In this document: piece by piece, positions 17,475 to 62,287 of the stretch | How positions within the stretch are numbered: position 1 is the first letter of the stretch | Layout: every line of letters begins with the position of its first letter | DNA from: Rhodospirillales bacterium | Lineage (GTDB): Bacteria > Pseudomonadota > Alphaproteobacteria > Acetobacterales > Acetobacteraceae | Length of the DNA: 64,000 nt | NCBI GenBank assembly: GCA_025352665.1 | Contig: JANXSM010000060.1 | Location: 1 to 64,000, forward strand | Reading direction: 5' to 3' | Notes under the pieces: model-generated | What the model saw: only the letters and a program-made list of their open reading frames with translations | Told to the model about the DNA's origin: nothing | The model's database searches: none | Position numbers and translations under genes: made by a program

Positions 17475-17478
<4 letters not shown>

Positions 17479-17747
17479 CTGCCACCTGCCAGTTTGATGG
17501 CCTGCAACATCGGACTGTCGACGCGATCGGGGATCGGGAGCCGCCCGGTGAGCCAATCCGCGAGATCGGCATCGGGCAATTCCATCACCTCCTCCAGCGC
17601 GTCCATGTCGGGTTCGGACATGGCGCCGATCCGGGCCGCGACAAAACCCCCGACCAACAGATCAGTTTCGTGGGTGCCGCGGTGCGTGGCACGGAACAGG
17701 AGGCGACGCCGGCGGATTTCCACAGGCGTGAGTTGGGGCGCTATCAT
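17475..17747 (-). CDS. sdhE: Succinate dehydrogenase assembly factor SdhE
   Basis: 90 residues with the family core EIRRRRLLFRATHRGTHETD (the RGxxExD motif, where the SDH5/YgfY family normally has RRGMxExD), then LLVGGFV and a DADLADWLTGRLP tail. It promotes covalent attachment of FAD to the succinate dehydrogenase flavoprotein. The RGTHETD variant keeps the conserved R, G, E and D. It is translationally coupled to mfd by a 4-base overlap; sdhE next to mfd and recG is common in alphaproteobacteria. Confidence 0.9.
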
Positions 17748-17952
17748 GACGGTCGTGATATAGCGATGCTACGCACCGGTGGGTAGTGTGCGCCGTGCGG
17801 CCTGGACCGCGTAGGGGTGGCCCTGGAAATTCGGGCAGCTGTACTGTCGGTTCCGAAGGTACGATAGTGTATCATCGGGCGCCCGCCCTAAGGCGACGTG
17901 CTCCTATCTACCAACGCTGCGTAATGCTAGGTTCCGGTAAATCCGGGGATGG

Positions 17953-18750
17953 TTGGCTGTGGCCGCATTGACACGCAACAACGTCCATATAACGGGCGAC
18001 GACAACAAGCGGGCGATGATTTTCGCCCATGGCTTCGGCTGCGACCAGCATATGTGGCGCTTCGTGGCTCCTGCGTTCGAAGCCAGCTTTCGCACTATCC
18101 TCTTTGACCATGTGGGATCGGGTGGCTCCGATCTGTCCGCCTATAACATGGACAAATATAGCAATTTGTCGGGTTATGCAGATGATATTGTCGAGATCGG
18201 GACCGAACTCAACCTGAAAAATGCGGTCTTCGTTGGCCATTCGGTGAGCGCCATGATTGGCGCCCTGGCCTCACTAAAGGCGCCAGGCATGTTTGAATGC
18301 TTGGTCCTGATCGGCCCTTCGCCGTGCTACATCAATGATGATGACTATGTCGGCGGCTTCAGTGCCCAGCAAATTGACGAGCTGCTGGACTTTCTGGGCG
18401 ATAATTATATGGGATGGTCGGCGGCTATGGCGCCCCTGATCATGGGCAATGCCGATCGCCCTGAGCTTGCCGAGGATCTGACCAACAGCTTCTGCCGCAC
18501 TGACCCCGAGATCGCCAAGGCGTTTGCCCGCGTGACTTTTACCTCCGACAATCGGGCCGATTTGCCCAAGGTCACGACACGCAGCCTGATCCTCCAGTGC
18601 AAAGCGGACCTGATCGCTCCGGCAGAAGTCGGAGAATTCGTCCACCGACATCTGCCAAACAGCCGACTCGTGCTGATGCAGGCGACGGGCCACTGCCCTA
18701 ACCTGAGCGCTCCGGAGGAGACAATTACTGCGATTCGGTCCTTTGTCTGA
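17953..18750 (+). CDS. RsbQ-type alpha/beta hydrolase
   Basis: 265 residues, closely resembling Bacillus RsbQ along its whole length: AHGFGCDQHMWRFVAPAFE, LFDHVGSGGSDLSAYNMDKY, VFVGHSVSAMIG, LIGPSPCYINDDDY, SLILQCKADLIAPAEVG and TGHCPNLSAPEET. The triad falls at Ser97, Asp219 and His247 (RsbQ: Ser96, Asp219, His247). RsbQ supplies an unknown small-molecule signal to the PAS domain of RsbP; the plant receptors D14 and KAI2 share the fold. The start is TTG at 17953 (a GTG two codons on is possible). The gene overlaps the PAS gene by 8 bases. Its GC looks lower than that of mfd and recG, suggesting transfer. Confidence 0.9.
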   Translation: MAVAALTRNNVHITGDDNKRAMIFAHGFGCDQHMWRFVAPAFEASFRTILFDHVGSGGSDLSAYNMDKYSNLSGYADDIVEIGTELNLKNAVFVGHSVSAMIGALASLKAPGMFECLVLIGPSPCYINDDDYVGGFSAQQIDELLDFLGDNYMGWSAAMAPLIMGNADRPELAEDLTNSFCRTDPEIAKAFARVTFTSDNRADLPKVTTRSLILQCKADLIAPAEVGEFVHRHLPNSRLVLMQATGHCPNLSAPEETITAIRSFV

Positions 18751-19195
18751 CAACAACCCGATCGAGAAATCCTCACCAACTGAGGATCTTGAGGACCTCT
18801 ACGAGAATGCCCCTTGCGGCTATCTGTCGATCGAGCCCAACGGCCGTGTCTTCAAAGTCAATTTGACATTCTCAACATGGCTTGGCTTTCCTCGTGAGGA
18901 GCTGGTTGGCAAGCAGTTTCACGATCTGCTGAATATTGCCGGACGTATATTTTTCGAAACACATTTTGCCCCGTTGCTGCGCATGCAGGGCTTTTTCAAT
19001 GAAGTGGCGCTCGACTTCGTCACCAAGCAAGGCGTGCGCCTTCCGGTATTGGTCAACGCGACCGAAAAGCGCGATGCCGAGGGTGGGCATGTTTTCACCC
19101 GCCTGACGATTTTCAATGCAACCGATCGACGACGCTATGAGCGGGAGCTTCTCACTGCGAAAGGCGCTGCTGAAGAGTCTCAAAAAGAATTGTAG
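18743..19195 (+). CDS. PAS sensor part of an RsbP-like PAS histidine kinase, ended by an in-frame TAG
   Basis: A TTG start inside the end of the hydrolase gene gives 150 residues. The PAS domain (about 8-130) reads LYENAPCGYLSIEPNGRVFK, GKQFHDLLNIAGRIFFETHF, APLLRMQGFF and RLPVLVNAT, closely like the RsbP PAS domain (NAPCGFL..., FPLLK, IPVLINA). A coiled-coil start (RYERELLTAKGAAEESQKEL) follows, and TAG at 19193-19195 ends the frame. The next codons continue the coiled coil and kinase in the same frame, so the ancestral protein was a single PAS kinase of about 398 residues. It may be a recent nonsense mutation, a sequencing error or a natural split. Confidence 0.75.
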   Translation: MSDNNPIEKSSPTEDLEDLYENAPCGYLSIEPNGRVFKVNLTFSTWLGFPREELVGKQFHDLLNIAGRIFFETHFAPLLRMQGFFNEVALDFVTKQGVRLPVLVNATEKRDAEGGHVFTRLTIFNATDRRRYERELLTAKGAAEESQKEL

Positions 19196-19240
19196 GCGCT
19201 CAACCGCGAGGCCAGCGTTGAAGCGAACCGCCAACAGGCA

Positions 19241-19939
19241 GTGCTCGTCATCGAGCAGGAAACCGCTGCCCTGCGCGAGGAATTCATTGCGGTACTGGGG
19301 CACGATCTGCGCAACCCCCTGGCATCCATTGATGCCGGTGCAAAAATATTGCTGAAAACACCTTTGACCGACCAAGCAACCGCTGTGGTCCAGCTCATGC
19401 AAAAAAGCGTGGTGCGGATTTCAGCGATGATAAATGATGTACTCGATTTCGCGCGGGGGCGGCTAGGCGCGGGGATCGGGGTGACTTTGAGCGCGGCCGA
19501 CACATCGCTCATGGAAACGCTCCATCAAGTGATCGCGGAACTCCGCACGAGTGCCCCCAGCCGAGCCATAGAGGCTGATATTGTGCTGACCGAGGCCATC
19601 AATTGCGATGCGGGCCGCCTCGGTCAATTGTTATCCAATCTACTTGGCAACGCGCTGACACATGGAGCCGACAACTCGCCTGTCCGGGTGCGGGCTGCCA
19701 CTGAGGGTGGCATGTTCACGCTGTCTGTCGCCAATATAGGGGAAACAATTACCCCGGCCGCACTGAAGCAGATGTTTCAACCATTTTTCCGGGGCGGCGT
19801 CAGACCAAGTCAGCAAGGACTGGGCCTGGGACTCTACATCGTTTCAGAAATTGCCCGCGCTCATGGTGGTGCAATGACGGCTGTGTCAGAGGCACACGAA
19901 ACACGGTTCACCTTCCGGATGCCGTTACAAAAATCTTGA
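19241..19939 (+). CDS. Histidine kinase core, in frame after the TAG
   Basis: 232 residues from a possible GTG start (19241), in the same frame as the PAS part. The HisKA-type H-box is EFIAVLGHDLRNPLASIDAG. The ATPase domain shows the N-box (LLSNLLGNALTHGAD), a G1-like segment (SVANIGETI) and G2 (QGLGLGLYIVSEIARAHGG). All catalytic motifs are kept, which argues against long-standing decay. If translated alone it would lack the sensor. No receiver or response-regulator gene adjoins it; the nearest receiver gene is at 61.9 kb. Its partner is therefore unknown. Confidence 0.75.
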   Translation: MLVIEQETAALREEFIAVLGHDLRNPLASIDAGAKILLKTPLTDQATAVVQLMQKSVVRISAMINDVLDFARGRLGAGIGVTLSAADTSLMETLHQVIAELRTSAPSRAIEADIVLTEAINCDAGRLGQLLSNLLGNALTHGADNSPVRVRAATEGGMFTLSVANIGETITPAALKQMFQPFFRGGVRPSQQGLGLGLYIVSEIARAHGGAMTAVSEAHETRFTFRMPLQKS

Positions 19940-20045
19940 GATATGCATCGGCCGGGTTTGGCGGGGAGTGGAACGGCTGCCTCAAACCCGCCCCCTCCAA
20001 CCGGCGGCCTTTGCAAAAATCCGGAAGTCAGGCACCACACGCAGC

Positions 20046-22106
20046 GTGCCAGCACCCTTGGAAACTCACCATCTCGACCCGCTCTTCGCCGAGCTGACCA
20101 GCCTGCGTGGCGTGGGCGGGGCCTTGGCCAAGCTCATGGCGAAGGCCATCGGTGGGTCCAGGGTGATCGATCTGCTGTTCCATATCCCGGAATCCTACCT
20201 CGATCGCCGAGAACGCAGCAGCATCGCGGCGGCGTTGCCTGGCCAGATGGTGACACTCGAGGTCGAGGTGGTGCGCATCACACCGCCCGACACGCCCCGC
20301 CAGCCCACCAAGGTGGCGGTGTCCGACGCCAGCGGCTTCTGCGACCTGGTGTTCTTTCGCGCGTTCCCCCGCGGCAAGCTCGGCCTCGGCGCCCGCGTCC
20401 TGATCGCCGGCAAGATGGACGACCGGCGCCAGATGGCGCATCCCGACCACATCGCGCCCATAGGATCGCCCGAGCAGTTTCCCGGCATCGAACAGGTCTG
20501 GCCGCTCACCGCCGGCCTGTTCGCCTGGCATCTGCGCAAACCGGTGGCCGAGGCGCTCTCTCGCGTTCCCGCCGGCCTGCCGGAATGGCACGACGAAACG
20601 CTGCTGGCCCGCGAAGGCTGGAAAGGCTTCGCCGAGTCGTTGGCCGCCTTGCAGACCCCGACCACCCTCCCCTCGCCGCTCGACCGCAAGCGCCTGGCCT
20701 ATGACGAACTGCTGGCCGGCCAGGTCGCGTTCGGGCTGATGCGTCAACGGGTGCGCGAACGCCCAGGACGCGCGCTGGTGGGGGACGGCCATCTGCGCGC
20801 CCAGGCGCTGGCCGCCTTCGGCTATGAAATGACCGCGCATCAGGCGCGGGTGATGGCGGAAATCGACGCCGATCTCGAAGCCCCCCATCGCATGCTGCGC
20901 CTGCTGCAAGGCGACGTCGGCTCCGGCAAGACGCTGGTCGCCATTCTGGCCATGCTGCGTGCGGTGGAAGCCGGCGGCCAGGCCGCCATCATGGCGCCGA
21001 CCGAAATTCTCGCCCGCCAGCACGCCCGCACGCTGGAGCGCATTTCCCCGGTGCCCGCCGCCCTGCTCGCCAGCACCGTCACCGGCAAAGCGCGCGCCCG
21101 CACCCTTGCAGGCTTTGCCGACGGTTCGATCAAGCTCGCCGTCGGCACCCACGCGCTGGTGCAGGACAGTGTCGCCTTCGCTGATCTCGCTCTCGCCGTG
21201 ATCGACGAGCAGCACCGCTTCGGCGTCGACCAGCGCCTGCAGCTTGGTGCCAAAGGCGAAATGACCGACGTGCTGGTGATGACCGCAACCCCCATCCCGC
21301 GCACCATGCTGCTGACGCAATGGGGCGAGATGTCGGTCAGCCGGCTGGACGGCAAACCCGCCGGCCGCAAGCCGATCCGCACCTCCATCCACCCCGTCTC
21401 GGCGCTGGCGGAGGTGAGCGATGCGGTGGCACGGGCCATCGACAGCGGCGCCTCGGTCTACTGGGTGTGCCCGATGGTGAGCGAAAGCGAGGTGGTCGAC
21501 CTCGCCGCCGTCGAGAACCGCTTCGCAAGCCTGACCCCACGCTTCGGCGCCAAGCTCGGCCTCGCCCATGGCCGCCAGGACTCGGGGGTGCGCGAACAGG
21601 CGCTGGCGGATTTCGCCGCCGGGCGAACCAGGCTGCTGGTCGCCACCACCGTCATCGAGGTGGGCGTGGATGTGAAGCAGGCCACCGTCATTGTGGTCGA
21701 GCAGGCCGAGCGCTTCGGCCTCGCCCAGCTGCACCAGTTGCGCGGCCGCGTCGGCCGCGGCGATGCCGCCAGCTACTGTTTGCTGCTGTATGACGAGCCG
21801 TTGAGCCATACCGCCCGCCAGCGCCTCATGCTGCTGCGCGACACCGAGGACGGGTTTCGCATCGCCGACGAGGATTTCCGTCTGCGCGGCGGCGGCGACC
21901 TATTGGGCACCCGCCAGTCCGGTTTGCCCGGCTGGCGGGTGGCCAACCCCGAGACCGATGAAGGCCTGCTGCACATGGCCGGGCGCGATGCGCAGGTGCT
22001 GTTGCATCATGACCCAAATTTAAATTCCGCACGTGGCCGCGCAATCCGCCTGTTGCTGCGATTGTTCGGCCTGCACGAGGCGTTCCGCACCTTGCACTCC
22101 GGCTGA
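20046..22106 (+). CDS. recG: ATP-dependent DNA helicase RecG
   Basis: The GTG at 20046 gives 686 residues, close to E. coli RecG (693); the frame stays open up to 19968 but the extra N-terminus is not family-like. An N-terminal wedge/OB domain (IDLLFHIPESYLDRRERS, GQMVTLEVEVVRI) is followed by SF2 helicase domains with Walker A QGDVGSGKTLVA, the DEQH box (VIDEQHRFG), TATPIPRTM, and motif VI QLRGRVGRGDAASYC. The C-terminal RecG region includes LRGGGDLLGTRQSG. RecG drives fork regression and branch migration during recombinational repair. Confidence 0.95.
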   Translation: MPAPLETHHLDPLFAELTSLRGVGGALAKLMAKAIGGSRVIDLLFHIPESYLDRRERSSIAAALPGQMVTLEVEVVRITPPDTPRQPTKVAVSDASGFCDLVFFRAFPRGKLGLGARVLIAGKMDDRRQMAHPDHIAPIGSPEQFPGIEQVWPLTAGLFAWHLRKPVAEALSRVPAGLPEWHDETLLAREGWKGFAESLAALQTPTTLPSPLDRKRLAYDELLAGQVAFGLMRQRVRERPGRALVGDGHLRAQALAAFGYEMTAHQARVMAEIDADLEAPHRMLRLLQGDVGSGKTLVAILAMLRAVEAGGQAAIMAPTEILARQHARTLERISPVPAALLASTVTGKARARTLAGFADGSIKLAVGTHALVQDSVAFADLALAVIDEQHRFGVDQRLQLGAKGEMTDVLVMTATPIPRTMLLTQWGEMSVSRLDGKPAGRKPIRTSIHPVSALAEVSDAVARAIDSGASVYWVCPMVSESEVVDLAAVENRFASLTPRFGAKLGLAHGRQDSGVREQALADFAAGRTRLLVATTVIEVGVDVKQATVIVVEQAERFGLAQLHQLRGRVGRGDAASYCLLLYDEPLSHTARQRLMLLRDTEDGFRIADEDFRLRGGGDLLGTRQSGLPGWRVANPETDEGLLHMAGRDAQVLLHHDPNLNSARGRAIRLLLRLFGLHEAFRTLHSG

Positions 22107-60820: not shown

Positions 60821-61852
60821 TCAGCGCAAAATGATCACATCCACCAGGGCGGTGGTTCCTGTCGCAGTGCTCGACTGCGCCACAAGCTTGCCCTGGCCTT
60901 TGCTGCCGAGCGAGGCCAGCACGGCCGCGGCCCGGCCTGTCGCCATGTTGCTGTCCGCGGGATCGACCGCCTTGACCCGCACGCCGCTTGGGTGGATGGC
61001 GCCGATCAGCTCGGCCAGCTGGGACATCCGCCCGTCGCTCGTCTCGGCCAGAGCGGCGCCGACGAACAGGGCGGCCGGCAGGCTCACCTGTGTGCCGTCG
61101 GCCAGCACCTCCCCCTGCAATGCCGCCATCAGCTGCACCACGCGGGTGATGCCGGCCGGCGGTGCGAGCGGCACCGCGCCCTGACCGATCTGCGAGTCTG
61201 CTTCGACCAGGCTGTCCTGGCCGAGCACGGTCACGCTCGGCGGCGCCCCGGCCGCCTTGAGACGATAGGTGACGACGCTGCTGTTGCCTTCGATGCGAAC
61301 CGGGGCCGCCGCCGCCAGTTCCGCGTCGACCAGATTGCCGTAGCCGCGCACCGTCAAGGACTGGCAGCCGCCGCGCAGCCGGTAGCGGGACATGTTGGCA
61401 TCCAAGGCCACCGGCCGGCCCGTGCAATCGAGCTCGATGCTTTGGTCGTCGCCCGTTAGTTTCGCGCTGTCGGACGCCGGTGCCGCACCCGCGGCTGCCG
61501 AGATGATCGTGTGATTGCCGGCCACGCGCAATTTCGTGGCGCGGCCTGCCACCACGTGCACCTGGTTGCCGCTGCCCTCTATGTCGATCGCGGCCTCGGG
61601 GACGAGCGACAGACTCACCCGGTTGCTCTCGCCACGCAAAGTGAGCGACTTGCAGATACCGGTGAAGGTCACGTTGTTGCGATTGCCGCTGACCGAGGCG
61701 GGCGCTTCCGCACAGGGCTGCGTGATGGTCTGCCCCTCCGCCTGAACCACGGGACCCGCGGCCGACTTGGCTTCGGCGGCAGCCGGCGTCGCGGCCCACA
61801 CGAAAGCGGGCATACCGGCCACCAGGGCCACTCCCAGCATCATGAACCGCAT
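60821..61852 (-). CDS. Exported DUF3060/OmpA-like protein
   Basis: 343 residues. Signal peptide (MRFMMLGVALVAGMPAFVWA). Residues about 35-200 carry DUF3060-type repeats: CAEAPASVSGNRNNVTFTGI C, LTLRGESNRVSLSLVPEAAI, IEGSGNQVHVVAG and GNHTIISAAAG (GSxNxV spaced by 20-25 residues, with C pairs), a right-handed beta-helix-like pattern. The C-terminal 110 residues (SLPAALFVGAALAETSDGRM, SNMATGRAAAVLASL, VDVIIL) resemble an OmpA-type peptidoglycan-binding domain, although the key Asp/Arg positions need checking. Probably cell-envelope associated. Divergent from the receiver-domain gene. Confidence 0.72.
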   Translation of the reverse strand: MRFMMLGVALVAGMPAFVWAATPAAAEAKSAAGPVVQAEGQTITQPCAEAPASVSGNRNNVTFTGICKSLTLRGESNRVSLSLVPEAAIDIEGSGNQVHVVAGRATKLRVAGNHTIISAAAGAAPASDSAKLTGDDQSIELDCTGRPVALDANMSRYRLRGGCQSLTVRGYGNLVDAELAAAAPVRIEGNSSVVTYRLKAAGAPPSVTVLGQDSLVEADSQIGQGAVPLAPPAGITRVVQLMAALQGEVLADGTQVSLPAALFVGAALAETSDGRMSQLAELIGAIHPSGVRVKAVDPADSNMATGRAAAVLASLGSKGQGKLVAQSSTATGTTALVDVIILR

Positions 61853-61918
61853 CGAGGCTCCTTTTCAGTTCCACACGCAACCGTGGTTTGTCGCGATCGA
61901 TTCGTTTCGATACATCCC

Positions 61919-62287
61919 GTGACCGTGAAAAACAGTATCAGAATACTGATCGTGGATGATCAGGAATTGGTGCGGGTCCTGCTCAGCCAGGCCATGCAGG
62001 ACGAAGGGTTCCGCGTTGCCAGCGCCGCCAATGGCGAGGAGGCGCTGCTGCTGTTGGGCCGCGAAACCTTCGATGTCGTGATGACCGACCTCCAGCTCGC
62101 GGGCCCGCTCGACGGCCAGGGGTTCGCCGCCGCCGTCAGGCTGCAGGCGCCGGGTGTGCCCATCATCTTCACCAGCGGCTGGCCCGAATGGCAGCACCCG
62201 GACGGCAACCGGTTCGAGACCTACATCGCCAAACCCTACCGCGCCGCCCAGGTTTGTGCCGCAGCGCGCCGACTGGCCAGCGCTTAA
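61919..62287 (+). CDS. Stand-alone response-regulator receiver domain
   Basis: GTG at 61919 (a second at 61925) gives 122 residues: ILIVDDQELVRVLLSQAMQD (Asp13-14), phosphoacceptor Asp57 in FDVVMTDLQLAG, conserved Thr/Ser in IIFTSGWPE, and Lys105 in TYIAKPYRA. No output domain. The SGWPEWQHP region is unusual. Single-domain receivers often serve phosphorelays or diffuse to a distant target. Its partner kinase is not in the window except possibly the PAS kinase at 19 kb. Confidence 0.85.
   Translation: MTVKNSIRILIVDDQELVRVLLSQAMQDEGFRVASAANGEEALLLLGRETFDVVMTDLQLAGPLDGQGFAAAVRLQAPGVPIIFTSGWPEWQHPDGNRFETYIAKPYRAAQVCAAARRLASA

Follow-up and report, generated by a model that had tools for sequence, protein, structure and literature searches.

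Gene content of the locus

The window analysed here, a 64-kb stretch of DNA from a Rhodospirillales bacterium, carries a hydrolase gene, a PAS open reading frame (ORF) and a histidine kinase ORF in tandem on the forward strand, between sdhE (17475-17747, reverse strand) and the divergently oriented recG (19968-22106 as listed, forward strand). The hydrolase gene (17953-18750) begins at a TTG codon and encodes an alpha/beta hydrolase of 265 aa, identified by phmmer and by the Pfam families Abhydrolase_6 and Abhydrolase_1. Its top match among solved structures was RsbQ of Bacillus subtilis (phmmer against the PDB, 1wom; 309 bits, E 2e-91, residues 4-263), with the plant receptors KAI2 and D14 ranking below RsbQ and a few bacterial relatives. 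Alignment to RsbQ recovered the catalytic triad that an earlier note on this DNA had proposed, at Ser97 (within GHSVS; codon 18241-18243), Asp219 (codon 18607-18609) and His247 (codon 18691-18693). The hydrolase combines the two features used to define the RsbQ class, RsbQ as its closest solved structure and an intact Ser-Asp-His triad, and judged by its sequence it is a true RsbQ homologue.

The PAS ORF (18743-19195; 150 aa, Pfam PAS_9 and PAS) also begins at TTG, at position 18743, and ends in a premature TAG; since rsbQ ends at 18750, the 8-base overlap described in the earlier note is confirmed. The PAS domain itself occupies residues 24-127 (18812-19123), as delimited by Pfam PAS_9, the nine class positions described below and a profile alignment. 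AlphaFold2 returned a confident PAS fold for the ORF (mean pLDDT 93.5), and a Foldseek search with this model matched many PAS and LOV structures at approximately 12-26% identity, so the fold alone names no ligand. The residues that distinguish the RsbP-PAS class are, in RsbP numbering, C10, L13, L48, a basic residue at 53, an aromatic residue at 55, position 56, H or Y at 59, E72 and P86, together with the absence of a DIT motif (PMC3183031). All nine are matched here (C25, L28, L63, R68, F70, F71, H74, E87 and P101) in an ungapped alignment to RsbP at a constant offset of 15; the publication does not state explicitly which residue class applies at RsbP position 56, and F71 fits either applicable class. 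The domain ends in FNATDRR and not in DIT, and is 46-55% identical to the PAS domains of actinobacterial RsbQ-PAS-phosphatase proteins. The RsbP-like character of the domain is in this way well founded, and no better alignment to PAS families other than that of RsbP emerged. His74 (18962-18964), in the F-alpha helix, corresponds to a histidine that is nearly invariant among RsbP-type PAS domains and is replaced by Tyr59 in B. subtilis RsbP.

Downstream of the PAS ORF, and sharing its frame, the kinase ORF (19241-19939, from a GTG codon) encodes HisKA (Pfam, 19274-19462) and HATPase_c (Pfam, 19607-19930) domains. It retains the marks of a two-component kinase, namely the HisKA phospho-acceptor His187 (codon 19301-19303), an N box from residue 299 and the G-box sequence GLGLGL at residue 359. 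The output assigned to this locus in the earlier note is to that extent correct, but a TAG at 19193-19195 separates the PAS domain from the kinase, and the interval 18743-19939, previously read as one gene, is closed at codon 151. Elsewhere in the family the kinase part is joined to other N-terminal regions, and several matches cover the kinase half only; the PAS domain, unlike the kinase part, keeps to RsbQ. The other kinases of the same genome are 26-32% identical to the kinase part. No response regulator adjoins the module. The only receiver found in the window lies in an ORF at 61460-62284 (domain spanning residues 162-267 when counted on the stop-to-stop frame) and has no evident link to the kinase.

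Conservation of the RsbQ-PAS pair

The earlier note allowed that the pair might never co-occur in other genomes, and the opposite was observed. Among 398 genomes of the same family, strong RsbQ matches were found at 22 loci and a PAS gene was adjacent at every one; conversely, an RsbP-type PAS profile gave 25 strong loci in these genomes, 22 of them with RsbQ adjacent. Three RsbP-type PAS proteins of 726-786 aa (G262:C235:24931, G106:C52:10619 and G167:C31:5516) occur without a strong RsbQ match in the same genome, and are possible orphans of the module.

Beyond the family, the best 80 RsbQ relatives from a scan of 84,980 species genomes belonged to alphaproteobacteria, other proteobacteria, actinobacteria, Bacteroidota, cyanobacteria and others. 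The next gene was readable in 78 cases and encoded a kinase in approximately 52, a GGDEF protein in one and other outputs in 25; the four of these 25 that were checked by Pfam were all SpoIIE/PP2C. The survey of RsbQ beside PAS-kinase genes proposed earlier is thereby answered in the affirmative, and dozens of RsbQ-PAS modules are added to the 45 described in 2011. The present locus shares the arrangement of the class, with the PAS gene directly downstream of the RsbQ gene and the PAS domain most N-terminal.

Relatives in Bradyrhizobium, Tardiphaga and Rhizobium carry a gene for a single-domain receiver directly downstream of the RsbQ-PAS-kinase pair on the same strand (L055, 7998-8237; L056, 7974-8342; L063, 5047-5466; L064, 7979-8350; L050, 7930-8406), and in other relatives, such as L039, the receiver is fused to the kinase. 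This position suggests that the adjoining or fused receiver is a candidate phospho-target of the module.

A stop codon in the PAS-kinase linker

The TAG at 19193-19195 (forward strand) falls in the helical linker between PAS and HisKA and is the sole stop in the 398 codons of the PAS-kinase frame. In the closest intact homologue, a 413-aa open frame from an alphaproteobacterial MAG (L038; 62% identical), the aligned codon is CAG (Gln), which differs from TAG by one transition, and Q, R or H occupies this position in several hybrid-kinase relatives. Covalent joining of PAS to its output, a further defining feature of RsbQ-PAS modules, is absent here, as the stop precedes HisKA/HATPase_c; wherever the kinase frame of another member could be read, PAS and kinase were fused. 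Unless the TAG is a sequencing error, the locus would yield either a PAS stub or two polypeptides, and this copy is probably a disrupted member of the RsbQ-PAS class.

Translation through the stop was considered in two forms. Recoding or suppression of amber codons was rejected: TAG is a common stop in this DNA, ending 14 of 56 selected ORFs of the window, mfd among them, and no CTA anticodon was present among 42 typed tRNAs of 43 tRNA hits, the 43rd (L203) being weak, with nothing called there by ARAGORN. Programmed read-through producing a small amount of full-length kinase would be consistent with the frame remaining open beyond the stop, but the routine use of TAG and the missing anticodon count against it as well, no homologue carries the stop, and we regard it as extremely improbable.

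An error of sequencing, assembly or consensus, or a minority allele, would leave the module intact. The draft assembly comprises 177 contigs, a single base separates the codon from one for Gln, the remainder of the 398 codons is free of lesions, and the authors of the 2011 survey suspected a sequencing error in a similarly split Mesorhizobium member (PMC3183031). Nothing points directly to an error here, however, and the long neighbouring genes mfd and recG read through cleanly; we regard this explanation as unlikely.

The clean frame beyond the stop also bears on the age of the lesion. The nonsynonymous divergence (dN) of the kinase part was 0.389 to the intact homologue L038, compared with 0.414 between L038 and another intact relative (L015). 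Divergence not exceeding that between intact relatives would fit a recent break, weakly so, and as synonymous sites are saturated it says only that the break is not old. A long-decayed pseudogene is unsupported, given the single lesion and the lack of excess amino-acid change, a weak indication under the same saturation. No second intact copy of RsbQ or of the PAS domain was found in the same genome.

The same observations would be consistent with a functional split, in which translation would re-initiate at GTG 19241 to give separate PAS and kinase polypeptides, the kinase acting with no sensor covalently attached. The kinase ORF retains complete HisKA and HATPase_c domains, and no relaxed constraint was seen in the pairwise comparison. 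However, this GTG, the first candidate start, lies 166 codons past the PAS start and 46 bases beyond the stop with no evident Shine-Dalgarno sequence upstream, all other members with a readable kinase frame are fused, and PAS-output coupling as modelled for the class runs through a continuous coiled coil (PMC3183031). A split of this kind seems quite improbable, and its fuller version, in which RsbQ would have two separate working partners, an independent RsbP-type PAS protein that keeps part of the coiled coil and an independent HisKA kinase, both of them produced, still less probable.

Origin of the islet

The module lies within an inserted islet of approximately 2.2 kb (17796-19995, ends approximate), delimited by comparison with congeners. 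In one congener (G007, L120) both flanks are present and the insert is missing, with similarity stopping near 17795 and resuming by 20017. The sdhE-recG site is empty in six of seven congeners, in which the two genes are divergent neighbours with almost nothing between them, and neither RsbQ nor the RsbP-type PAS was detected in any of the seven, some of whose genomes are incomplete. In the seventh (G005, L124), a Phd/YefM antitoxin and PIN-domain toxin pair (770-1452) occupies the gap, indicating that this gap takes different inserts in different species.

The G+C content is 56.5% in the islet and 65.8% in the window; at third codon positions it is 0.60-0.69 in the islet against 0.82-0.84 in mfd and recG. 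Plasmids carry RsbQ relatives too: 66 records were found, of which 24 are predicted to be conjugative, and on one, the conjugative plasmid of Neorhizobium sp. EC2-8 (L206), the two genes again overlap by 8 bases and a transposase lies downstream. A search for transposon boundary repeats at the islet found only short, imperfect repeats, and a promoter scan gave nothing above chance. Horizontal acquisition would be the simplest account of an islet with this composition and distribution.

The islet also places the kinase ORF directly upstream of recG (junction region 19940-20060), in contrast to the approximately 40 bases that separate sdhE and recG in congeners, and it may have changed recG expression.

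Proposed function and its probable loss

In the model proposed in 2011, RsbQ binds the PAS domain through the F-alpha helix, either delivering a product or reporting that it is itself occupied, and a coiled coil carries the resulting change to the output (PMC3183031); physical contact between RsbQ and PAS has been shown for B. subtilis only (PMC3183031). In the intact form of the present module, RsbQ would dock on the PAS domain, via the F-alpha helix as in B. subtilis, and would either supply the PAS pocket with a product of hydrolysis or signal that its own active site is occupied. Relayed by the coiled coil, this signal would then reach the HisKA/HATPase kinase, leading to phosphorylation of a response regulator.

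The explanation that we favour, and consider probable, is that a horizontally acquired RsbQ-PAS-kinase islet was interrupted, most likely recently, by a single C-to-T change (CAG to TAG) that cut the gene within the coiled coil. The products would then be RsbQ and a PAS stub lacking any kinase or, at best, a kinase made separately through re-initiation, and RsbQ would no longer control the kinase. The same TAG may yet be a sequencing or assembly error, and the clean frame beyond it fits an error or a functional split equally well. The signal-sensing unit wired to a kinase that the earlier note envisaged is real in its pairing and in its RsbP-type PAS domain, but the wiring is interrupted in this copy by the linker stop.

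Comparison with known systems

The proposal that this locus represents a new hydrolase-receptor kinase system does not hold, as RsbQ-PAS with a histidine kinase was published in 2011. Nadezhdin, Brody and Price described 45 RsbQ-PAS modules whose output is a phosphatase, a diguanylate cyclase or, among Gram-negatives, a histidine kinase (PMC3183031), the PAS domain being joined covalently to its PPM, HK or GGDEF output, usually by way of a coiled coil; one member of their set was split from its kinase by a frameshift (PMC3183031). The open-access literature searched yielded no later experimental work on the kinase version. Like the published kinase modules, the present one has RsbQ immediately upstream, an N-terminal RsbP-type PAS, a helical linker, HisKA/HATPase domains in a Gram-negative and the class residues; unlike them, it has an in-frame TAG in the linker and resides in an islet absent from congeners.

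The RsbQ-RsbP pair of B. subtilis, which serves the energy-stress branch of sigma-B activation, shares with this locus the hydrolase and its triad, the PAS signature and the tandem order. The output of RsbP is a PP2C (PPM) phosphatase, whereas here it is a histidine kinase, split off by the stop. The plant karrikin and strigolactone receptors KAI2 and D14 have the fold and broad family of the hydrolase in common with it, but they signal via F-box/SMXL partners and not via PAS domains; the link to them is one of fold and ancestry, not of pathway.

The loci of Rhizobium johnstonii 3841 (L042) and Neorhizobium sp. EC2-8 have the gene order seen here but an intact kinase. The module travels among bacteria, here as an islet and elsewhere on conjugative plasmids, and its intact kinase version with an adjoining receiver, as in Bradyrhizobium and Tardiphaga, would be better suited than this interrupted copy to finding the signal and the phospho-target. 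Set beside these relatives, the interrupted RsbQ-PAS-kinase locus is an ordinary, probably broken member of a known and mobile class, which has here probably undergone a recent loss of function.
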